This document shows positions 14,676 through 25,603 of a DNA stretch of 41,713 bases, in pieces. Made by a program: the position numbers and the translations under genes. The notes beneath the pieces were generated by a model, which searched no databases, had not been told where the DNA came from, and saw only the letters and a list, made by a program, of their open reading frames with translations. How positions within the stretch are numbered: position 1 is the stretch's first letter; each line of letters opens with the position of its first letter. Origin of the DNA: a virus; the IMG/VR virus record IMGVR_UViG_3300023178_000097, positions 1-41,713 of that record. One strand, 5' to 3'.

Positions 14676-17600
14676 ATGGCAGGTTATACAAGACAGAGTG
14701 CTGCGGATATTGTTTCTGGTCAGGTTATCAAAGCTGAACCAGTCAACAACGAATTTCAGCAGATACTAGCAGCCTTTAATGAGGCAACAGGACACAAGCA
14801 CGATGGATCTTCTGCTGAAGGTGCTTATATCCCAACGATCTCAGACACAAACAACTTTACTAAAGTAGTAATTGATACTGCCAATAACAGGATCAACTTC
14901 TTTACAAATGTTGGCAGTGCTGCAGTAGAACAGATAAGGATACAAGATGGAGCTATTGTTCCTGTCACTGATGAAGATATTGATCTGGGTTCTGCGAGTG
15001 CTGAGTTTAAAGATCTTTACATTGATGGTGTGGGTTATATTGACACTCTTGCGGTGCATGAAAATGCTACTATTACGGGTAACCTTACCGTTAATGGGAA
15101 TACTACTCTTGGTAGTGACGATAGTGATACTGTTACAGTAAATGCTGATGTTGCCTCAGATCTTATCCCTTCTGCAGATGGCACATATGACCTAGGTTCT
15201 TCTACTTCAGAGTGGCAAGACCTATACATTGATGGTACAGCAAACATTGACAGCCTTGTAGCTGACACAGCAGACATTAATGGTGGTACTATTGATGGTA
15301 CTACTATTGGTGCTACGACTCCTGCTGCTGCTGACTTTACCACAATGGATGCATCTAGTAACGCAACTGTTGGTGGTACACTTGGTGTAACAGGTAATAC
15401 AACCTTATCTGGTACTCTTGGAGTAACAGGTGTTTCTACTTTCTCTGATACAGTCTGTGCACCTAACCTAAAAGCCACAGGAACATCAACTCTTAGTACA
15501 GTAGATATTAATGCAGGTAATATTGACAATACTGTTATTGGTGCCACTACTCCTGTTGCAGGTAGCTTTACTACACTTAGTACGACAGGACAGGGTACTT
15601 TTGCTACAGTCGATATCAATGGGGGTACTGTTGATGGTACTACTATTGGTGGTGCTACACCAGGTGCTATAACAGGTACAACAGTTACAGCCAATACCTG
15701 CTTTGTGGGTGACATCACAGGTAATGTAGCAGGTAACGTAACTGGCAACGTCACAGGTAATATCACTGGTGACGTTACAGGAGATGTCACAGGAAATCTA
15801 ACAGGTAACGTTACAGGAAATGTGACAGGAGATGTTACTGGTGATCTGACTGGTAATGTCACAGGTAATGTTACAGGAAACGTAACAGGTGACTTAACTG
15901 GTGATGTAACATCAACAGGTACCTCTTCTTTCTGTGATATTAACATGACAGGTACTGCAGGACTTGATATGGGTTCTGCTAAGATTACCTCTCTTGGAAC
16001 ACCAACCCTTGATGGAGATGCAAGCACTAAGTGTTATGTGGACCAACAAATCAGTAACCTGATTGGTGGTGCTCCTGGTGCTCTTGATACTCTGAGTGAA
16101 CTAGCTGATGCTATCAACAATGATGCAGACTTCTACACATCTCTTACAACTTGTTTAGGTACAAAACTAGCATGTGCAGGTGGCACTATGTCAGGGGATA
16201 TTACCCTTGGTGCTAATAAAGCCACATCTACAGCCACACCTGCTACAGATGATACATTGACTCGTAAGGGTTACGTAGATACTCAGGATGCTCTTAAACT
16301 GAGCTTGACTGGTGGCACAATGTCTGGTGCCATTGCAATGGGTACATCTAAGATTACAGGTCTAGGTGATCCAACTGCTGCTCAAGATGCAAGTACTAAA
16401 AACTACACAGACACTTGTGTTGCCACAGCAATGCCTTTGTCAGGTGGTACATTCACAGGAAATGTAGAAACTACTTGTCCTATTATTTCTTGCTACACAC
16501 CTGCCAATGCATGTGACCTCACAAATAAGTGTTATGTAGATGGTATCTTACAATCAGCTACTGCAGCCTGTACTTCTGCTGCATGTGCACTAGCAAGTCA
16601 AACTGCTTCAGCTACTTCAGAGACTAATGCAAGTAACTCAGCTACTGCTGCTGCAACCTCAGAAACAAATGCTGCTGCATCTTATGATAGCTTTGACGAC
16701 AGATACCTTGGCAATAAATCATCAGACCCATCAGTAGACAACGATGGTGATGCTCTATTAACTGGTGCATTATACTGGAATACTACAGATAATGCTCTTA
16801 AAGTTTACACAGGATCTATCTGGTCTTCTGCAGCATTTACACTTGGTGATGCTCTTACTCAAATTGCAGAAGATACTACACCACAGCTAGGTGGCCCTCT
16901 AGATGGTGACTCTGAGTGTATCTACAACGTATCAAGTGTTTGTGCTACAAACCTATATGGTACTTTTACAGGTAACCTGACAGGTGATGTAACTGGTACT
17001 GTCTCCTCTCTTTCTAATCATGACACAGATGATCTAGCAGAAGGTACAAATCAGTACTTCACAACAGCTAGAGTTGATAGTCACCTAACAGGTGGTACAG
17101 GTGTTACTTACACAACTGGTAACATTTCTATTGGACAGTCTGTTGGTACATCAGACAACGTTTGTTTTGGATCAGTATGTGTAACAGGTAATCCTACCCA
17201 GGCTTGCCAACTTGCAACAAAAGAGTACGTTGATACGATTGCTGCTGCAGGTATTCACTACCATGATCCAGTACGTGTTGAATCACCAGATAGTGCAGGT
17301 AGTTTGAATGCTACTTATGACAATGGTTCATCTGGTGTAGGTGCTACACTTACCAATGCAGGAACACAAGCTGCCTTAGTTATTGATGGTGTAACACTAA
17401 ACACCAATGATCGTGTCCTTATCTATAGCCAAACAAATGGTTACGAGAATGGTGTCTACACAGTAACCAACACTGGTTCAGCTTCGACTAACTGGGTTCT
17501 TACTCGTGCTACAGATGCTGACAGCTATGGTGCTTCAGATCAGAATGCACTAGGTGAAGGTGACGCATTCTTCGTAAAAGAAGGTGACACAGGTGCAGGT

Positions 17601-18623
17601 GAACTGTACGTGATGAACACATCAGGTACAATTACATTTGGTACTACTAACATTAGCTTTACTGTTATAGCTGAGACTGCTGTATACGATGCAGGTTCAG
17701 GCTTGACACTAGATGGTACAACCTTTAATGTTGGTGCAGGAACAGGTGTTACAGTAAATGCTAACAATGTTGCCATTGGACAGGCAGTAGGTACAGGTGA
17801 CACAGTAACCTTTGCTAGAGTATGTGCTCCTGTCACAGGAGATGTAACAGGTAACCTTACTGGTAACGTCACTGGTAACGTGACAGGTAATGTTACAGGT
17901 AACGTAACTGGATCTTCAGGATCTACAACAGGTAATGCAGCAACAGCAAGTGCTTGGCAAACAGCTAGAACACTTTGTATCTGTGGAGATGCTTTAGGTT
18001 CTGCTTCGATTGATGGTTCTGGTAACGTAAACCTATCAGTAGCTGTTCAAGATGACAGCCATAACCACACAGTAGCTAACGTTGATGGACTAGCAACATG
18101 CCTTGCAGGTAAAGCCTCCAACACAGGTCAGAACTTTTCAGGAAATATCTGTGCTCCTGTAACATGTGGTACAAGTTGTGTGAAAGCACCAGTAATTTGT
18201 GGTGAAAGTTGGCTTGCAGTAGGTGGCAGATGTATCTGTAACTCAGCAGGTGATTATGGTTCTATCTCCATTGTTGGTGGTGACAATGGTTGGACAGGAT
18301 ACTCAATTAATAACCAGTACGTATTTATGTCACAGGGTACTGAGGTAGGTATCTATAACGATATTACCAACGAGTGGATGTTCAACGCAGGTTGTAACGG
18401 AGATGCTTGCCTATATCACAATGGAGCAGTAAAACTCCAAACAGCTTCTTATGGGTCTTATACTCATGGAAATCACTGTGCATCCTCTTGTGTGAAAGCA
18501 CCAGTACTTTGTGCAACAACAGCAGTTTGTGCAACATGCTTCAAAGGAGATGGGGCAGGACTAACTAATATAGCAGGGTACTCCATTGCTACTGCTATGG
18601 CATATGGAAATGCTTTAAGCTAA
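14676..18623 (+). CDS. Giant tail fibre with T-G-N/D repeats and Cys-enriched tip
   Basis: 1315 residues. The N-terminal 50 (MAGYTRQSAADIVSGQVI, then FNEATGHKHDGS) is the usual virion-attachment segment of marine podovirus fibres. The shaft consists of beta-helix-like repeats: two tracts of GN/DVT units (residues 345-412 and 1055-1078), and several collar-type segments with TKxYVDxxI and GGTMSGxI. Residues 600-670 are Ala/Thr/Ser-rich. I count 36 Cys, sparse in the first 340 residues and dense towards the C-terminus, where CxC, CxxxC and GxxCVKAPVxC motifs recur. Fibres of this type normally have almost no Cys. The C-terminal part also has a GDGAGLTNI repeat typical of the family. Likely the primary host-recognition fibre. 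Confidence 0.85.
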   Translation: MAGYTRQSAADIVSGQVIKAEPVNNEFQQILAAFNEATGHKHDGSSAEGAYIPTISDTNNFTKVVIDTANNRINFFTNVGSAAVEQIRIQDGAIVPVTDEDIDLGSASAEFKDLYIDGVGYIDTLAVHENATITGNLTVNGNTTLGSDDSDTVTVNADVASDLIPSADGTYDLGSSTSEWQDLYIDGTANIDSLVADTADINGGTIDGTTIGATTPAAADFTTMDASSNATVGGTLGVTGNTTLSGTLGVTGVSTFSDTVCAPNLKATGTSTLSTVDINAGNIDNTVIGATTPVAGSFTTLSTTGQGTFATVDINGGTVDGTTIGGATPGAITGTTVTANTCFVGDITGNVAGNVTGNVTGNITGDVTGDVTGNLTGNVTGNVTGDVTGDLTGNVTGNVTGNVTGDLTGDVTSTGTSSFCDINMTGTAGLDMGSAKITSLGTPTLDGDASTKCYVDQQISNLIGGAPGALDTLSELADAINNDADFYTSLTTCLGTKLACAGGTMSGDITLGANKATSTATPATDDTLTRKGYVDTQDALKLSLTGGTMSGAIAMGTSKITGLGDPTAAQDASTKNYTDTCVATAMPLSGGTFTGNVETTCPIISCYTPANACDLTNKCYVDGILQSATAACTSAACALASQTASATSETNASNSATAAATSETNAAASYDSFDDRYLGNKSSDPSVDNDGDALLTGALYWNTTDNALKVYTGSIWSSAAFTLGDALTQIAEDTTPQLGGPLDGDSECIYNVSSVCATNLYGTFTGNLTGDVTGTVSSLSNHDTDDLAEGTNQYFTTARVDSHLTGGTGVTYTTGNISIGQSVGTSDNVCFGSVCVTGNPTQACQLATKEYVDTIAAAGIHYHDPVRVESPDSAGSLNATYDNGSSGVGATLTNAGTQAALVIDGVTLNTNDRVLIYSQTNGYENGVYTVTNTGSASTNWVLTRATDADSYGASDQNALGEGDAFFVKEGDTGAGELYVMNTSGTITFGTTNISFTVIAETAVYDAGSGLTLDGTTFNVGAGTGVTVNANNVAIGQAVGTGDTVTFARVCAPVTGDVTGNLTGNVTGNVTGNVTGNVTGSSGSTTGNAATASAWQTARTLCICGDALGSASIDGSGNVNLSVAVQDDSHNHTVANVDGLATCLAGKASNTGQNFSGNICAPVTCGTSCVKAPVICGESWLAVGGRCICNSAGDYGSISIVGGDNGWTGYSINNQYVFMSQGTEVGIYNDITNEWMFNAGCNGDACLYHNGAVKLQTASYGSYTHGNHCASSCVKAPVLCATTAVCATCFKGDGAGLTNIAGYSIATAMAYGNALS
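15708..15911 (+). repeat. 17 tandem 12-base units coding G-N/D-V/I/L-T in the fibre
   Basis: Seventeen consecutive 4-residue units (fibre residues 345-412), in the order GDIT, GNVA, GNVT and so on, fill exactly 204 bases. The DNA copies differ mainly at synonymous positions (for example GGTAACGTTACA, GGAAATGTGACA, GGTAATGTCACA). The protein repeat is thus conserved while the DNA is not a clean tandem repeat. Confidence 0.9.
17838..17909 (+). repeat. Six further G-N/D-V/L-T units in the fibre
   Basis: A second tract of six 12-base units (GDVT, GNLT, then four GNVT) corresponds to fibre residues 1055-1078, directly before a GSSGSTTGN linker and the Cys-rich tip. It uses mixed synonymous codons like the first tract. 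Confidence 0.85.
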
Positions 18624-18639
18624 ACGAGGAAAATAAATC

Positions 18640-20034
18640 ATGGCAGATCAATTTTGTAGAATAGCCTGTGCAAATATTTGTAATATGTCTTTTAATGGTG
18701 ACGGTATAGTTTGTCTCCTTACGACTGACGCAAGTACAAGCTACGTTATTCGAGATATATATAAACAAGATGAAGCAGCTGACTTAGCCAATAAGTGCTA
18801 CAAGGGTGACCTTTATATGGATGGTGTTAAAGTTGGGAGTGATCTTTCTGCTTCGCTCACAGGTAACTTAATTGTCCCTCCCTCTACTACACTTTGTTAT
18901 AAAGAGACATCTGGTAATTACCCTATGACGTTTGGTGTTGTAAAAGCGCAAGTAGGGGGAAGTGCAAACCATACTGAAAGTTACTTATTTTGCTGCGCTT
19001 TAATGGTGGGTAACGCTGCAGGAACACACTGTAAATGCTGTGGTTGTTGTGGCTGTATGTGTCTAAGCGGCATATGTTGTGATAACTGTTGGTACTGTGG
19101 TACTGCACACTACGATCCAGGTTTTGCTAATGCGTATGCTGCCCATCATTATGATGGTAACTCTGTTTCAAATTTTTATGTTTTCTATAAACAATCAAAT
19201 TGTACTACATATACTTTATGTTATAGTTGTTATACTAACTACTGTACTACTGCTATTGCACCAGATATGGCTGTAACATCAATGCCTGGTTGTTCAAAAG
19301 TACACAACTGGAGAGCTTGTACCTTTGCAGACCTAGAATGCTTCATATGTGTTTGTAACTTTAATGGATCAGGTCGTAGTACATACGGTAAAAATGGTAT
19401 ATCTATGGTGGGCTGTCGTGGATGCTGTGCTTGTAGAGCCGCTATCGAATGGGATCAAGTAAACGGAAATATGTCGTTATATCGTTTTAATACTTGTTGC
19501 GTTTGTAGTGGCAATCCTAGTTCAATTTGTAGTTGGTGTATCTGGTGTGGTAGTCAGTCATCACTAAGTGCAATTCAATGTTTTTGCACTATTATGGGCA
19601 ACCTCAGCGGTGCAAAAGTAGGTGTATTCTGGTCATGTTACTGTGAAGAGTGGATGGTTTACGGACACTATTATAGATGTCTGGCTATTGCTAACAGCAA
19701 TATGACACAAGAATGGTTCCTTTGTGCAGGTCCTGATTTTGGTGATACAACAATGTTCCGTGCAACAGATGACGGAAAAAGATTCTGGTGGTGGCTAAAC
19801 TGTAGTTGTAAACACGCTTTCATTGATTTTGATTCAATGATTAAAGGAACAACTGAAGTTTCTTACCTATCAGATACACCTTACACAACTGGTAATTGGT
19901 GTTATCCAACTGGTCTAACTGGTCATGTCTTTGTTTCACCTGCTTGTAATATACCAACATATGCGAATTCATGTGATTATCCTACTATTGACTGTGATAC
20001 AAAAATTAGAATTTATGGTATTAAATCAACTTAA
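18640..20034 (+). CDS. Cysteine-extreme probable tail fibre/tip protein (about 50 Cys in 464 aa)
   Basis: 464 residues with about 50 cysteines by my count (near 11 percent), in CC, CxC, CxxC and CxxxC arrangements. The densest stretch is around residues 125-153, where CKCCGCCGCMC is followed by further CC and CxxC pairs. Aromatic residues (Trp, Tyr, Phe) are also frequent. The N-terminus and the repeated ANKCYKGDLYMDGVKVG element resemble fibre-associated proteins. It follows the fibre gene by 16 bases and ends in KIRIYGIKST. A GAGGAAA ribosome site precedes its ATG. No known metal-binding domain is recognisable, and I cannot name a family. Cys may form disulfide cross-links, bind metal or carry modifications; all are inference. 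Confidence 0.75.
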   Translation: MADQFCRIACANICNMSFNGDGIVCLLTTDASTSYVIRDIYKQDEAADLANKCYKGDLYMDGVKVGSDLSASLTGNLIVPPSTTLCYKETSGNYPMTFGVVKAQVGGSANHTESYLFCCALMVGNAAGTHCKCCGCCGCMCLSGICCDNCWYCGTAHYDPGFANAYAAHHYDGNSVSNFYVFYKQSNCTTYTLCYSCYTNYCTTAIAPDMAVTSMPGCSKVHNWRACTFADLECFICVCNFNGSGRSTYGKNGISMVGCRGCCACRAAIEWDQVNGNMSLYRFNTCCVCSGNPSSICSWCIWCGSQSSLSAIQCFCTIMGNLSGAKVGVFWSCYCEEWMVYGHYYRCLAIANSNMTQEWFLCAGPDFGDTTMFRATDDGKRFWWWLNCSCKHAFIDFDSMIKGTTEVSYLSDTPYTTGNWCYPTGLTGHVFVSPACNIPTYANSCDYPTIDCDTKIRIYGIKST

Positions 20035-20123: not shown

Positions 20124-21056
20124 ATGACTACTGTTTTTATGATTGATGGTGGGGCAGGAAGGGCTATAGCAGCTATCCCTGCCTTACTAAAGTTTAAAAG
20201 AACCAACCCTAAAGAAAATTTTAGAGTTTTGGTTTATGGGTGGGACACTATTTTCTGGGGAATACCAGAACTACAAGACCACGTTTTTAACCCAGAGCAA
20301 AAAGGTTCTTTTGAACAGTTTCTGTTGGATGCAGACAGAGTAATATCTCCAGAGCCTTATAGAGTACCTGGGTACTACAAACAAGAAAAGTCTCTTGCAG
20401 AAGCTTTTGATTATCTAATTAATAACACGGATGATCACTCTGACCTTGAAAATCCTGTATTAAAAACAAGTAGGCCAGAAGAGTTTAACGCTGCTAAGTT
20501 TATGCAGGAAGTTAAACAACAACAAAAAAAGCAAAAAACAATCGTTATACAACCCTTTGGTAGATCAATCGAAAGACCACAGGAAAACGTTACTCTTGAT
20601 GCATCATCACGTTCTATAAACCCTGATGTTTATCTTAAGTTAGTTAAAAAACTTTCAGCTAAATTTAACTTAGTCTTATTTGCTGAAAGAAACTTTTGGC
20701 TTCCTGAAGATACCTTTACCATGAAACCTGAGGCTGACCTTCGTATGTGGACAGCTTTTATTGACGCAGCAGATTACTTCATTGGTTGTGACTCTGTTGG
20801 GCAACACATGGCAAGGGCTGTGAATACTCCTGGTACTGTTATACTTGGTTCCACCTTTGCTATAAATACCTCTTATCCTGATTACTTTAATATTATTGAA
20901 AAGGATGTTCCTAAAAAATATTCACCTATACGTCTTTCTCAACTTGAAGGAAACTTAGCTGATAGAGTAAATGAAGCTACTGTTGAATTTACAGATGAAG
21001 AAATAAATGATATATATTCAAATATCTTGAAAGACATAGAAAAGAAGGTGAAATAA
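20124..21056 (+). CDS. GT9-like glycosyltransferase, probable heptosyltransferase
   Basis: 310 residues, GT-B style. It opens with a nucleotide-sugar GT-like start (MIDGGAGRAIAAIPAL, residues 6-21). The C-terminal half carries the GT9 signature DYFIGCDSVGQHMARAVNTPG (starting at residue 217), followed by VILGST. It resembles the (V)GxDxGxxHxAAA-xxxP segment of WaaC/WaaF with Asp223 and His228. GT9 enzymes transfer heptose from ADP-heptose to LPS core, and relatives modify proteins. Downstream genes make exactly that donor, which supports the substrate. It ends one base before the next start. AAGAAAGAAG precedes the ATG. The acceptor is unknown (host lipid A core or phage protein). Confidence 0.75.
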   Translation: MTTVFMIDGGAGRAIAAIPALLKFKRTNPKENFRVLVYGWDTIFWGIPELQDHVFNPEQKGSFEQFLLDADRVISPEPYRVPGYYKQEKSLAEAFDYLINNTDDHSDLENPVLKTSRPEEFNAAKFMQEVKQQQKKQKTIVIQPFGRSIERPQENVTLDASSRSINPDVYLKLVKKLSAKFNLVLFAERNFWLPEDTFTMKPEADLRMWTAFIDAADYFIGCDSVGQHMARAVNTPGTVILGSTFAINTSYPDYFNIIEKDVPKKYSPIRLSQLEGNLADRVNEATVEFTDEEINDIYSNILKDIEKKVK

Positions 21057-21057
21057 A

Positions 21058-22767
21058 ATGTCTAATATCTTAGTGATTAATCCAGGACATAATGGATCTG
21101 CTGCTTTTTGGCAGCACGATAAGCTTAAGTTTTATATAGAAGAGGAACGTTTATCTAGATATAAGTATGATGGAAACCCATACAGAGGTATGGTTGAAGC
21201 ATTACAATATGGGGTAGATATTCTTGTTATAACAGGAACATCTGAAGAACTACCTAGACTTGCTTGGACTGGTGAAGATCCTTATACTGCTTTCCTAAGA
21301 AAGTTTAACCCTAAGTTAAAAACTATTAACATTGGTGCAGATCACCACTTTGCTCATGCCTGTTCTGCTTTTGTGAACTCTGGTTTTAGTAAAGCTGCTG
21401 CTGTTATTATTGATGGTGCAGGATCAAGAAGAGGAATAAAAGTATCTGACGAAGTAACAAATTACGGTTTTGAAACTGAAACTATTTTTGATTGTTGTTG
21501 GGATGATGGTTTTACTAGAAAGTACACTGTCTATGGAGGTAATCCAGATACATTCTTAGCTGCGTCTGATAGTATATATATGGATAGTTCCGTAACTCTT
21601 GTTAAAGCCTACGAAGCTGTATCTGAATACTTAGGTTTTACTTTTATTGAAGCAGGTAAAACAATGGGTCTTGCCCCATACGGTCAAAAGGATGACTCAA
21701 TACCTAATCTTTTTGTAGATGGGAAGGCTAACAGAAATATGCTGATACCTAATTACCCTGCAGGTGCTCATATTGATTATAACAGAATTGAAAAGCTTAG
21801 ACTTAAAGAAGACCCTAAAGCTTGGCACACTGATCCTAGTAAAGTTACAGAAGAGGCTATGAATCTAGCCTGGTCTGTTCAACAGGAAACACAAGAACTA
21901 GCAGGTGACCTTATTGAAAAAGCCGTAGATATGACAGGCAAGAAAAACATTGTTATTGCAGGGGGCTATGGTCTAAACTGTGTAGCTAACTATTACTACA
22001 AGAAACGTTTTCCTGATCTTAATATCTATGTTGATCCTGTCTCCCATGATGGTGGTACTACTATAGGTACTGGAATATACTTCTGGAACAAAGAATACGA
22101 AAGTAAACTAAAACGTCCACTAACAACACTTTACTTAGGTCCAGAACGTAAAGAAAATTATGACCTTCTAGAAAACTACGACACAAAGGATGTTACTCCT
22201 GCTGATGTAGCAAAGCTTATCTCTGAGAAAAACATTGTTACTATTTTTCAAGGTAGATCAGAAGCAGGTCCAAGAGCACTAGGTAATCGTTCTATACTTT
22301 ATGATCCCACAGACCCACAAGGCAAGGATGTTGTCAACAAAGTAAAAGGACGTGAATGGTTCAGACCCTTTGCAGGATCAATGCTCAAGGAATATTTTGA
22401 GGAATGGTTTGAAACATACGGAATGGAAGAGTCACCATTCATGATGTATGCAATGGACTTTAAGTCTGACAAGCATGGTGAATGTCCTGCTATCACGCAC
22501 GTAGATGGTACATGTCGTATCCAGACGGTAACCAGAGAGCAGAACGAAGCCTATTACGATCTGATTGAAGAGTTCCGTAAGATCACTGGTGTACCAATCC
22601 TGTTTAATACAAGCTTCAACCTAGCAGGTGAACCACTTGTAGAGACACTAGAAGATGCTCTGCACACAATGGAGAACTGTGATATCAAGTATATGTACCT
22701 ACCAGAAGTAGGTAAGCTTGTTATGGTAGCTTCTGAGCAAACTGAAGAAGATTCTCAAACACCTTAG
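21058..22767 (+). CDS. NodU/TobZ-family O-carbamoyltransferase
   Basis: 569 residues, the normal length of the family. The Kae1-like domain shows NPGHNGSAAF (8-17), the metal-binding DHHFAHA motif (95-101) and VIIDGAG. The central region has GGYGLNCVANY and SHDGGTTIGTG. The YrdC-like C-terminal domain has GPRALGNRSIL and PILFNTSFNLAGEP. These enzymes make carbamoyl-AMP from carbamoyl phosphate and ATP and pass the carbamoyl to a sugar hydroxyl. Pseudomonas WapO carbamoylates heptose in LPS core, so a heptose acceptor is consistent with its neighbours. It is tightly linked to the heptosyltransferase and overlaps the oppositely oriented gmhB by 47 bases tail to tail. Confidence 0.9.
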   Translation: MSNILVINPGHNGSAAFWQHDKLKFYIEEERLSRYKYDGNPYRGMVEALQYGVDILVITGTSEELPRLAWTGEDPYTAFLRKFNPKLKTINIGADHHFAHACSAFVNSGFSKAAAVIIDGAGSRRGIKVSDEVTNYGFETETIFDCCWDDGFTRKYTVYGGNPDTFLAASDSIYMDSSVTLVKAYEAVSEYLGFTFIEAGKTMGLAPYGQKDDSIPNLFVDGKANRNMLIPNYPAGAHIDYNRIEKLRLKEDPKAWHTDPSKVTEEAMNLAWSVQQETQELAGDLIEKAVDMTGKKNIVIAGGYGLNCVANYYYKKRFPDLNIYVDPVSHDGGTTIGTGIYFWNKEYESKLKRPLTTLYLGPERKENYDLLENYDTKDVTPADVAKLISEKNIVTIFQGRSEAGPRALGNRSILYDPTDPQGKDVVNKVKGREWFRPFAGSMLKEYFEEWFETYGMEESPFMMYAMDFKSDKHGECPAITHVDGTCRIQTVTREQNEAYYDLIEEFRKITGVPILFNTSFNLAGEPLVETLEDALHTMENCDIKYMYLPEVGKLVMVASEQTEEDSQTP

Positions 22768-23368
22768 TCTTTTTTCTTAGTTTCTCCTTAGAGAACTTTT
22801 GAAGATCTTTTTCAGTAGCTACCCCATGACCAGTACGTACTAAGATTGGGGTAGCACCAATACGTTCCGCAGCTTTAAGATCTGTCACCTTATCACCTAC
22901 GTAGAACCCTTTGTCTTTAAATCTAATTTTGTTATTGAATACTTCTTTTTCAGCACGATGAAACATACCAATGTTAGGTTTAGCATAGTAGTCCTCTTTT
23001 AATGAAGACTCAGAATAGAATAAACCATCAATGGAGTAGATACCTGCATTGCCAAAGACTTCCATCATACGTTGATGAATGGCTTCTACCTGTGCATGTG
23101 TCTGCTCTTTTTTAGTAATACCACCTTGGTTAGTTAGAATTACTACTTTGTAGCCTTTTAATCTAATCAAACGAATAGCTTCCAGTGATCCAGGGATAGG
23201 CTCCCAGTCATCAGGATCAGTTAGGTAGTGTCCTTTATCTATGTTGATAACACCATCACGATCTAGACCAACAATAGACTTAGGAAACACAGTAGGCCAA
23301 TCAGGGGGTAGGTTTTGTTGTTGAACTTGTTGTGGGTCTTGTTCTATTATGTGTTTGAATCGAGACAT
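22721..23368 (-). CDS. gmhB: D,D-heptose-1,7-bisphosphate 7-phosphatase (GmhB-like), antisense in the cassette
   Basis: 215 residues of the HAD superfamily. The catalytic motif GLDRDGVIN (residues 34-42; D36 and D38) is followed by HYLTDPDDWEPIPGSLEA and VILTNQGGI, as in GmhB, and by the C-terminal GDKVTDLKAAERIG acidic motif. It removes the 7-phosphate in ADP-heptose synthesis. The cysteine/histidine zinc loop of typical GmhB is absent: between FYSES and KPNIGM there is no Cys. The N-terminal 25 residues are an extra Gln-rich extension. It is the only - strand gene inside the + strand late region and needs its own promoter or readthrough, which I cannot identify. Confidence 0.85.
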   Translation of the reverse strand: MSRFKHIIEQDPQQVQQQNLPPDWPTVFPKSIVGLDRDGVINIDKGHYLTDPDDWEPIPGSLEAIRLIRLKGYKVVILTNQGGITKKEQTHAQVEAIHQRMMEVFGNAGIYSIDGLFYSESSLKEDYYAKPNIGMFHRAEKEVFNNKIRFKDKGFYVGDKVTDLKAAERIGATPILVRTGHGVATEKDLQKFSKEKLRKKTKVFENLLQFAQKLP

Positions 23369-23382
23369 AGTGGATATTACCT

Positions 23383-23793
23383 ATGAAGAAAGTTTTCGTT
23401 AACGGTGCTTTTGATGTTCTGCACTCTGGACACCTTGATCTCCTTGATTTTGCAGGGATGTTAGGTGGTCATTTGCTCGTAGCTATTGACACAGACGCAC
23501 GTATTGAGTATAACAAGGGTATTGGAAGACCTTTTAATCCTTTGTCAATACGTAAACATATAATGTCTATGTTAAAGCCTGTCAATAGTGTCAGAGTATT
23601 TGATACAGACCAAGAGCTAGTTGACATCATAAGGCAGTATGAACCAGACGTAATGGTAAAAGGATCTGATTGGAAGGGGAAGACAATACTTGGGGAGGAG
23701 TACTGTAAAGAAATAGTATTCTACGAGAGAACCAATGGGCAGTCTACCACAAAAGCAATCGAAGATTTTATTACTAGGAGACAGTTGCTATGA
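23383..23793 (+). CDS. hldC: Heptose-1-phosphate adenylyltransferase (HldE C-domain type)
   Basis: 136 residues of the cytidylyltransferase-like fold. NGAFDVLHSGHLDLL (7-21) has the HxGH active site at 14-17, and PDVMVKGSDW (89-98) and the NGQSTT loop (118-123) match the nucleotidyltransferase half of HldE. It converts heptose-1-phosphate plus ATP to ADP-heptose. In many bacteria this activity is the C-terminal half of bifunctional HldE; here it is a free protein. It starts 15 bases from the divergent gmhB start and its last 59 bases overlap the kinase gene in another frame. Confidence 0.9.
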   Translation: MKKVFVNGAFDVLHSGHLDLLDFAGMLGGHLLVAIDTDARIEYNKGIGRPFNPLSIRKHIMSMLKPVNSVRVFDTDQELVDIIRQYEPDVMVKGSDWKGKTILGEEYCKEIVFYERTNGQSTTKAIEDFITRRQLL

Positions 23794-24490
23794 TGAGTAT
23801 CACACAGGAACTGTAACCAGAATAAGCCCAGAGGCACCTGTACCTGTCTTTGATCTTACCTCAACTGTAATCAAAAGAGGTATGGCATATAACGTCTACA
23901 ATAACCTAGTTAATCTAGGAACTAGGGTAGACATCATAACAGAGTACAGAGAACGTAAACACAGATACGTTGATGACAAGACTGGTCAGCAACTGATCAG
24001 AGTAGATGAAAAGATTAAGACAGAGCACATAGATACAGCAGACGAAAACTTAAGTATGTATGATGCTGTTGTCATCTCAGACTACAACAAAGGATTTGTA
24101 GCAGAAGGTGACATAAAAGATTTTAGAGCTAAGTATAACGGCCCTATCTTTGTAGATACTAAGAAGACTAACCTAGCTCAGTTTGATGGCTGCTTCGTAA
24201 AGATAAACCAGTACGAGTTTGAAGCAGCAGAAACACTAACAGACGATCTGATCGTCACATACGGCTCAAAGAAAGTCGAGTACAAAAACAGAACTTACCT
24301 ACCCCCTAGTGTAGAAACTCATGATGTGTGTGGTGCAGGAGATACGTTCCTAGCAGGACTTGTTTTTAAGTACTTGGAATCGTATGATATGGATGCTGCT
24401 ATTAAGTTTGCAATGGATGCAGCAGCAGTAACTGTACAACACAGAGGTGTGTATGCACCTACACTAGATGAGGTAGTAAATGAGACTTGA
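23735..24490 (+). CDS. hldA: PfkB-family heptose-7-phosphate kinase (HldE N-domain type)
   Basis: 251 residues. It begins with KILLLGDSCYDEYHTG, then RISPEAPVPVF (29-39), a strong HldE kinase-domain match. YNVYNNLVNLG corresponds to the PfkB GGxxxN region and the C-terminal DVCGAGDTFLAG (197-208) holds the catalytic Asp203. It phosphorylates C1 of heptose-7-phosphate, yielding the substrate of GmhB. It is shorter than the roughly 318-residue HldE kinase domain and lacks parts of the lid. The start overlaps hldC by 59 bases; no other start would keep the N-terminal strand. Gene order is the reverse of the domain order in HldE. Confidence 0.88.
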   Translation: MGSLPQKQSKILLLGDSCYDEYHTGTVTRISPEAPVPVFDLTSTVIKRGMAYNVYNNLVNLGTRVDIITEYRERKHRYVDDKTGQQLIRVDEKIKTEHIDTADENLSMYDAVVISDYNKGFVAEGDIKDFRAKYNGPIFVDTKKTNLAQFDGCFVKINQYEFEAAETLTDDLIVTYGSKKVEYKNRTYLPPSVETHDVCGAGDTFLAGLVFKYLESYDMDAAIKFAMDAAAVTVQHRGVYAPTLDEVVNET

Positions 24491-24836
24491 AGGCTTCGTT
24501 AAGAAAGGTTGGGGGTCTGAGCTAATCTGGGCAACCAACGACAAGTATTGTGGTAAGTTCTTACAATTTCACTTTGGTGGTAAGTTTTCTATGCACTTCC
24601 ACAAAGAGAAAGATGAAACATGGTACGTCCTATCTGGTAAGTTTGAAGTACACTGGATTGATACTGAAGATGCAACATTACACGTTGAAGAGTTAAACGA
24701 GGGAGACACATGGCATAACCCACCTCTAGTTCCTCATCAAATATTTTGTTTAGAGGAAGGTACACTTGTAGAAGTTTCTACTCCTGATTCCGTTGAAGAT
24801 AACTATCGTGTCGGAAAGGGAGACAGTCAAGAATGA
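24480..24836 (+). CDS. Cupin-fold protein of the sugar cassette
   Basis: 118 residues forming one cupin barrel. The first motif is GGKFSMHFHKEKDETWYVLSG, with metal ligands H39, H41 and E46; the second is in PPLVPHQIFCLEEGTLVEVS, with H86. Small cupins of this kind are found in LPS and sugar-nucleotide clusters, where they act as isomerases, epimerases or binding proteins. The window lacks GmhA, the isomerase that starts heptose synthesis. Whether this cupin replaces it is speculation. Start overlaps the kinase stop by 11 bases, and its stop overlaps the next gene by four bases (ATGA). Confidence 0.8.
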   Translation: MRLEGFVKKGWGSELIWATNDKYCGKFLQFHFGGKFSMHFHKEKDETWYVLSGKFEVHWIDTEDATLHVEELNEGDTWHNPPLVPHQIFCLEEGTLVEVSTPDSVEDNYRVGKGDSQE

Positions 24837-25603
24837 AAATCTTAGTTACAGGTAGCAATGGTTTTATCGGCAAAAATCTTATCAATAAACTACAGGATGA
24901 ACATGAAATTATTAAGAACGAATGGGGGATGTCGTTCCCCTCAATTAAGAATCTAGACTGGGTTATACACCTAGGGGCTATTAGCTCCACCACAGAAACA
25001 AACATCTCAAAGATATATAGACAGAACCTAGAGTTCACTATTAAGTTATACGAAGAATGTATTAATAACGATGTTAAGTTTCAATTTGCTTCTAGTGCCT
25101 CTGTGTACGGATTGAAGTCAGACTTTAAGGAGACTTCTCCTCTTAATCCTCAGAACCATTACGCACGTAGCAAAGCTATGTTTGAGAGATACGTAGAGTT
25201 GAGAAATGCTCCTATTACTACACACATATTTAGATATTTTAACGTCTACGGACCACAAGAAGAACACAAAGGAAATCAAGCAAGTCCCTTCACCAAGTTT
25301 ATGGAACAAGCTAAGACGAGTGGTAAGATAAAGATCTTCAAAGGGTCTCCTAAGTACTTCAGAGATTTTATCCATGTAGACGAAGTTGTAGACTACCACC
25401 AGAAATTCTTGAGTATAGATGAGTCAGGTGTTTGGAATGTTGGTACAGGTAAAGCTCGTAGCTTCTACGATGTAGCCCTAGAGATTTCTGATAAGACTGG
25501 TGCAACTATAGAGTTTATTGATTTCCCAGAAAATTTAAAAGGTAATTACCAAGAGTTTACTAAAGCAGACACAACAAAGCTTTGGGACACTCTTTCAGTT
25601 TAA
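24833..25603 (+). CDS. hldD: ADP-L-glycero-D-manno-heptose 6-epimerase
   Basis: 256 residues, extended SDR fold. The nucleotide-binding loop is GSNGFIG (7-13). The HldD-specific block GAISSTTE is at 48-55, the catalytic YxxxK is at Y110/K114, and RYFNVYGPQEEHKG is at 134-147 (compare RYFNVYGPREGHKG in E. coli HldD). A C-terminal PENLKGNYQEFTKADTTKL also matches HldD. It converts ADP-D,D-heptose to ADP-L,D-heptose, the last donor-making step. It is about 50 residues shorter than the E. coli enzyme because the last helices are missing. It overlaps the cupin gene by four bases. Family identity is very strong. Confidence 0.92.
   Translation: MKILVTGSNGFIGKNLINKLQDEHEIIKNEWGMSFPSIKNLDWVIHLGAISSTTETNISKIYRQNLEFTIKLYEECINNDVKFQFASSASVYGLKSDFKETSPLNPQNHYARSKAMFERYVELRNAPITTHIFRYFNVYGPQEEHKGNQASPFTKFMEQAKTSGKIKIFKGSPKYFRDFIHVDEVVDYHQKFLSIDESGVWNVGTGKARSFYDVALEISDKTGATIEFIDFPENLKGNYQEFTKADTTKLWDTLSV

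Follow-up and report, generated by a model that had tools for sequence, protein, structure and literature searches.

Among described systems, the closest to the locus reported here are TibC and Aah, glycosyltransferases of GT-B heptosyltransferase fold encoded beside the autotransporter adhesins TibA and AIDA-I, in which many acceptor sites per adhesin are modified with ADP-heptose as the likely donor (PMC4358343). TibC modifies Ser and not Thr, and its structure includes an iron finger with four Cys as well as an additional beta-barrel domain (PMC4358343). The LPS heptosyltransferases WaaC, WaaF and WaaQ belong to GT9, are covered by PF01075 and possess Asp13, a catalytic base that a review assigns to all heptosyltransferases (PMC5713226). 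Attachment of a sugar to the sulfur of Cys is an established natural modification in the glycocins, with SunS and ThgS as their enzymes (PMC6405829, PMC12457901), although glycocins are short peptides bearing few S-glycans. In cyanophages, the 'LPS gene clusters' known from P-SSM2, S-SSM7 and S-SM2 have been described as possibly functional or as 'stuffer DNA' (PMC3037559).

We analysed a window of 41,713 nucleotides (positions 1 to 41,713 of IMG/VR virus record IMGVR_UViG_3300023178_000097) in which a Cys-rich tail-tip gene is followed by a glycosyltransferase (GT) gene and a sugar cassette (Table 1). Like TibC/Aah, the locus combines a GT modelled in the GT-B heptosyltransferase fold (TM about 0.6 to TibC), a dedicated GT gene beside putative adhesin substrates with many potential acceptor sites, and ADP-heptose as the likely donor; unlike them, its putative substrates are phage tail proteins rather than autotransporters, its proposed acceptor is Cys rather than Ser, and its GT is a 310-aa protein with a single Cys. 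We consider it probable, at about 0.68, that this GT S-glycosylates, probably S-heptosylates, the tip and fibre adhesins in the manner of TibC/Aah but on Cys.

Table 1. Features of the tail-tip region and the adjoining cassette in the window
Feature	Coordinates	Strand	Details
Tail fibre	14676..18623	+	1315 aa, 35 Cys; PHROGs tail fiber E=1e-19
Cys-rich tail-tip protein, proposed main acceptor	18640..20034	+	464 aa, 50 Cys
GT9-like glycosyltransferase, phrog_8954, proposed Cys S-glycosyltransferase	20124..21056	+	310 aa
Nol/NodU-like carbamoyltransferase	21058..22767	+	PF16861 E=8e-62, PF02543 E=2e-20, phrog_1601 E=7e-153
GmhB-like D-glycero-D-manno-heptose 1,7-bisphosphate 7-phosphatase	22721..23368	-	NF006506 E=1.5e-38, under curated cut-off
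HldE C-domain-like heptose-1-phosphate adenylyltransferase	23383..23793	+	TIGR02199 E=2e-27, under curated cut-off; phrog_7878
HldE N-domain-like heptose-7-phosphate kinase (PfkB)	23735..24490	+	TIGR02198 E=2e-35, under curated cut-off; PF00294
Small cupin, possible sugar isomerase	24480..24836	+	PF07883 E=6e-9; phrog_7851 E=6e-42
HldD-like ADP-heptose 6-epimerase	24833..25603	+	TIGR02197 E=7e-69, 232.5 bits vs cut-off 274.6

The tip ORF runs from an ATG to a TAA and encodes exactly 50 Cys, or 10.8% of its residues, as the first-pass annotation had estimated from the same sequence. Its base composition predicts 18.6 Cys (P(>=50) = 4e-10), and the remaining window proteome, excluding the tip and the fibre, contains 0.56% Cys (tip versus rest, P = 1e-46). 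In a second sample, the contig IMGVR 3300023175_001185 matches the window at 100% identity over 21.5 kb free of gaps, so the Cys-richness does not stem from a frame or assembly error, the first of the doubts raised with that annotation. A change of genetic code, which it had already discounted on the grounds of ordinary codons (TGT 42, TGC 8; n=50), is likewise unsupported: the class II ribonucleotide reductase NrdJ on the minus strand of the window (E = 3e-158) retains the Cys in NPCGEQ, which we take to be the catalytic-site motif of the NrdJ family, indicating that TGY is read as Cys in this phage. The assignment to the tail region also holds. Searches of Pfam and PHROGs returned no domain for the tip, in keeping with the earlier statement that it shows no zinc or Fe-S domain of a known kind.

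The window phage, a virus of marine bacteria, is of the HMO-2011 type, with Roseobacter phage CRP-9 as its nearest cultured relative by terminase (89.8% identity); the syntenic cultured relatives CRP-9 and HMO-2011 both lack the GT. Residues 1-95 of the tip (18640-18924) share 40% identity with the N-terminus of Roseobacter phage CRP-113 gp38, a 444-aa protein with 2 Cys whose gene lies directly 3' of a tail fibre gene. Past residue 95 we found no significant similarity between the two proteins, and full-length homology is unsupported (z = 1.0). Among viral contigs the tip has a single homologue, the identical copy; beyond these contigs the one further homologue is this N-terminal domain in the Autographiviridae phages CRP-113 and CRP-171 (L003 32729-34063 and L004 32896-34230). 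The 95 aa shared between an HMO-2011-type phage and Autographiviridae point to tip exchange between phage families. In 13 relatives of the window phage the tip module has 0% DNA coverage while the GT gene is 100% covered, and the tip thus appears to be a swapped module, differing at one and the same site in all of them. The fibre preceding it is itself enriched in Cys (2.7%, P = 1e-13), most strongly near its C-terminal end, a feature missed in the first reading of the sequence. Its N-terminal part aligns with Cys-free fibres of GT-less phages (L151/L157/L158 and CRP-9 gp47), of which CRP-9 gp47 is 669 aa long, has 0 Cys and is 49% identical over 721 columns.

By family matches, the cassette downstream of the tip would cover most of the ADP-heptose pathway. 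The best profile matches for these steps are clear by E-value, ranging from E=7e-69 to 2e-27, but all lie under the curated NCBIfam cut-offs; the two HldE domains are encoded by separate genes, and no SIS-type GmhA was identified. PHROGs gives the small cupin the label 'cysteine dioxygenase', which is doubtful, since the position of the gene within a heptose cassette suggests a sugar isomerase or epimerase instead. The carbamoyltransferase probably carbamoylates the sugar. The cyanophage 'LPS gene clusters' of earlier work (PMC3037559) contain the same cassette as T4-GC 302-308; in P-SSM2 and S-SSM7 we find it adjoining hypothetical proteins that are rich in Cys. The word cysteine is absent from the main text of that paper, and among open-licence PMC papers we found nothing on Cys-rich cyanophage tail proteins, leaving earlier reports elsewhere possible.

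The AF2 model of the GT (pLDDT 95.6) is predicted to adopt the heptosyltransferase (GT-B) fold, with Foldseek matches to WaaC (E=4e-10), WaaF (1e-9), TibC (1e-9) and a Veillonella GT9, in a range extending to ~1e-8, at TM-scores of only about 0.5-0.7 (for TibC, 4rap, E=1.4e-9 and TMq 0.62). The NCBIfam RfaQ profile matches at E=3e-7, under its curated cut-off, and PF01075 gives 17.3 bits and does not reach its cut-off of 22, a distant Vibrio GT scoring 24.5. In an alignment with E. coli WaaC and WaaF, the equivalent of WaaC Asp13 is Arg in 9/10 phage GTs and Lys in one (L148), and R13 is nearly invariant across 49 GT relatives. D223 is invariant among the phage enzymes and aligns with the donor-site Asp of the DTGLSH motif (WaaC D261), and the nearly invariant R163 falls at or beside WaaC Lys192 in a region where the alignment is weak. 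No Cys occurs at the invariant or nearly invariant columns of the 49 relatives. The phage GT resembles the GT9 LPS enzymes in fold and donor-site Asp, but has Arg/Lys in place of Asp13 and is encoded beside tail fibres; because the iron finger, Asp13 and a PF01075 score above cut-off are all wanting, we claim membership of neither BAHT nor GT9. A strong base may be dispensable when the acceptor is a thiol. SunS belongs to family GT2 and has a GT-A fold, in contrast to the GT-B fold that Foldseek indicates for the phage enzyme, and the window GT has no GT2 Pfam match.

Cys-rich proteins recur beside the GT at most of the loci surveyed. At least 569 IMG/VR viral contig stretches match the GT, and a GT-anchored survey comprised at least 80 loci, of which the 52 with at least 5 kb upstream were used. 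Under a strict test (an ORF on the GT strand with >=4.5% Cys, >=12 Cys and >=130 aa), 42 of these 52 loci pass among the matches listed, compared with 0/252 genes in GT-negative DNA, and the Cys-rich ORF mostly lies 1-3 genes upstream of the GT. A looser test, asking for >=8 Cys within some 150-aa segment, is passed by 47/52 of the same loci among the matches listed; 5/29 GT-negative pieces reach 8-9 Cys, whereas most GT-positive loci reach 13-31. The cultured cyanophages P-SSM2, S-CAM1, S-SSM7, S-CAM3 and Sf-FS3 and single-cell viruses with a GT homologue have 1-3 neighbouring proteins with about 8-12% Cys, and the four close GT matches in the genome collection, all in MAG contigs, also adjoin Cys-rich proteins. 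In one MAG contig labelled Woesearchaeota (L165), the GT directly follows a 593-aa protein with 52 Cys that begins with a signal-like hydrophobic segment.

Among the matches listed, only one GT-positive phage (L055/L057, its entire 58-kb contig examined) clearly has no Cys-decorated adhesin, with no Cys-rich protein encoded alongside its GT. This exception indicates that the GT needs no Cys-rich protein nearby or can have another target, and the GT of this phage may have another acceptor. The GT of this 58-kb group (G001; L055/L057/L095-L097) is 53-54% identical to that of the window and adjoins Gly-rich, almost Cys-free fibre genes. The strict test is also failed by L056, L085/L086 and a few others, the L056 contig encoding a 3584-aa fibre with clustered Cys.

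So that loci would not be chosen by their GT, we additionally compared clades assembled from relatives of a neighbouring tail gene. Across four clades, a Cys-decorated fibre or tip occurs at 48/48 loci with the GT and 0/19 without: 17/17 against 0/9 in the HMO-2011-type clade, 22/22 against 0/1 in cyanomyoviruses, 6/6 against 0/7 in a freshwater clade and 3/3 against 0/2 in cultured Vibrio phages. At the nine GT-less HMO-2011-type loci, the homologous fibres (1096-1760 aa) contain zero Cys and the next gene is Cys-poor. Tail proteins of the GT-bearing Vibrio phages K482, K479 and SBP1 contain 41, 39 and 41 Cys, compared with 5 and 9 Cys in 2662 and 1359 aa in D456 and 168E36-1, which have no GT in the sequence examined. 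Owing to kinship and near-identity within clades, these counts are not independent events, although the four clades are independent. Homologues lacking the cysteines, which the first-pass annotation would have held against a significance of the residues, thus do exist, yet the Cys-poor ones belong to phages without the GT. We regard a functional link between the GT and Cys decoration as almost certain, and the sequences show Cys decoration going with GTs of this family in phages and proteins that are unrelated to one another.

The heptose genes do not show the same association. S-SM2 and P-TIM68 each have an LPS cluster that encodes a kinase, an adenylyltransferase, an isomerase and an epimerase, but they lack this GT, and neither genome encodes a protein above the Cys-rich threshold, ruling out heptose genes as the determinant of Cys-richness. 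Conversely, in Aeromonas phage HJ05, Vibrio phage K482 and L148 the GT homologue adjoins Cys-decorated fibres, and no heptose gene was matched in the regions examined. By gene content, Cys decoration tracks the GT and not the heptose genes. Hosts of phages without heptose genes may supply ADP-heptose from their own LPS pathway. Heptose is absent from cyanobacterial LPS (PMC4515613), which could explain why cyanophages bring their own ADP-heptose genes.

These distributions bear directly on the alternative that survives best, in which the cassette attaches sugars to Ser, Thr or Asn of the tips and the cysteines have a role of their own, such as disulfide cross-linking, that is co-inherited with glycosylated tips. 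TibC, the protein-modifying structural match, does modify Ser (PMC4358343), and Ser, Thr and Asn are abundant in the Cys-rich proteins. Any separate Cys function would, however, have to be tied to the GT every time: the decoration accompanies the GT in unrelated folds, also among relatives without nearby heptose-gene matches, and is absent when heptose genes are present but the GT is missing. We consider this alternative improbable.

BLAST sorts the Cys-rich proteins found near the GT into 13 multi-member families, with about 16 singletons besides and no similarity from one group to another; they include Gly-rich adhesins (PF21722) and, by sequence inspection, proteins with Hep_Hag-like, RCC1-like and DUF1566-like repeats; two opposite-strand members, probably spurious, were left out of the Cys-spacing analysis. 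Within 137 Hep_Hag-like repeats, Cys makes up 8-24% at positions -1, 6, 7, 10 and 11, <=2% elsewhere and 0% at the conserved N, N, I/T, A, I/V, G, A/S and N. Cys columns correspond to A, Q, E and S above expectation in Cys-free homologous fibres, with I and R depleted, and Cys lost in homologues are replaced by S, N, T and Q beyond expectation and rarely by W. No sequon around Cys was found. Cys ranks among the better-conserved residue types in these proteins (76% conservation among homologues at 57% identity, 52% at 41% identity), and one cyanophage adhesin family has 19 invariant Cys columns; selection therefore maintains Cys, some of which may have a structural role, as would fit the invariant columns. 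Cys-Cys adjacency is the strongest spacing pattern (obs/exp 1.38), whereas CxxC spacing (distance 3) is not enriched over local shuffles (obs/exp 1.07). A predicted structure of one Cys-rich adhesin is of low confidence (mean pLDDT 57.9).

Such conservation and the enrichment of adjacent Cys could be taken to favour a tip locked by disulfides, in which networks formed after lysis would toughen the fibre while the GT modifies LPS or some other target. This we hold to be unlikely, and more so than the Ser/Thr/Asn alternative: homologous fibres of similar length have 0 Cys, Cys of the Hep_Hag-like repeats occupy variable positions only, conservation falls to just 52% at 41% identity, the Cys number is odd in 35/83 representatives, and the tie to the GT would go unexplained. 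The lack of a CxxC excess, the gain and loss of Cys with the GT and the variable Hep_Hag-like positions together disfavour disulfide and metal roles as what the Cys are there for, two of the three options offered in the first-pass annotation; comparative evidence favours the third, thiols for glycosylation.

Highly unlikely, in our view, is that the thiols receive a different cassette-made modification, for instance a non-heptose sugar or S-carbamoyl. Two observations would suit this idea: no other cassette gene accompanies the GT as constantly as the carbamoyltransferase, and the Asp base known from heptosyltransferases is missing from the GT. But many phages that do not carry this GT also have a carbamoyltransferase (134 records, versus 53 with the GT), and L148 and the Vibrio and Aeromonas phages combine Cys fibres with a GT homologue and have no carbamoyltransferase match in the regions examined. 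A metal-binding tip, whose Cys clusters (CKCCGCCGCMC in the window, CCSRECNGCNGC in cyanophage adhesins) would hold Zn, Fe-S or other metals, is the least credible, given the tip's lack of a Pfam or PHROGs domain, unenriched CxxC and the fact that unrelated families have composition, not a motif, in common.

Returning to S-glycosylation by the GT, we envisage the tip ORF product as the host-binding tip of the tail fibre, and the cysteines of both this protein and the preceding fibre as acceptor sites for sugars. ADP-heptose would be made by the phage's own HldE/GmhB/HldD-like enzymes, and the GT9-like enzyme would move the sugar to Cys thiols under the reducing conditions of the cytoplasm, prior to virion assembly or in the course of it, giving stable S-glycosides to which the carbamoyltransferase probably adds carbamoyl on the sugar. 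The greater stability and enzyme resistance of S-glycosides relative to O-glycosides (PMC7020787) offer a plausible reason for using Cys. The product would be a hyper-S-glycosylated adhesin, in contrast to the glycocins with their few S-glycans, and the sugar coat of the adhesin could serve host binding, shielding or stability. Within this scheme Cys is the likely acceptor, heptose is somewhat favoured as the sugar, possibly in carbamoylated form, and we infer a role of the coat in host binding or shielding.

We put at even odds the broader proposition that phages widely encode a protein modification system built on one GT9-related enzyme, which would S-heptosylate tens to >100 Cys per adhesin and by its presence reshape the amino-acid composition of many unrelated tail proteins, and that part of the cyanophage 'LPS clusters' decorates the phage itself. 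If true, structural proteins would be S-glycosylated at many sites, and by an enzyme family that has no relation to the known glycocin S-glycosyltransferases. Some of the cyanophage 'LPS' genes, for which a 2010 study had not settled a role (PMC3037559), would then have a function, and phage host recognition would gain a further, post-translational level. As several GT-bearing phages are cultured isolates, the proposition can be tested now.

Further proteins accompany the GT at individual loci. Phage proteins near the GT in L084 and L092 contain RCC1-like 'LWxWGxNxxGQLG' repeats, in some of which variable positions are occupied by Cys, and small DUF1566-like proteins with several Cys surround the GT in L085, L088 and L089; L085 also encodes a Cys-free, collagen-like Gly-X-Y protein about 900 aa long. 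In some cyanophages, 2OG-Fe(II) oxygenases are interleaved with the GT cassette (L010 25390-25857, 27511-28998 and 31766-32380; several in L012), as is a tryptophan halogenase in S-SSM7, hinting at further tailoring.
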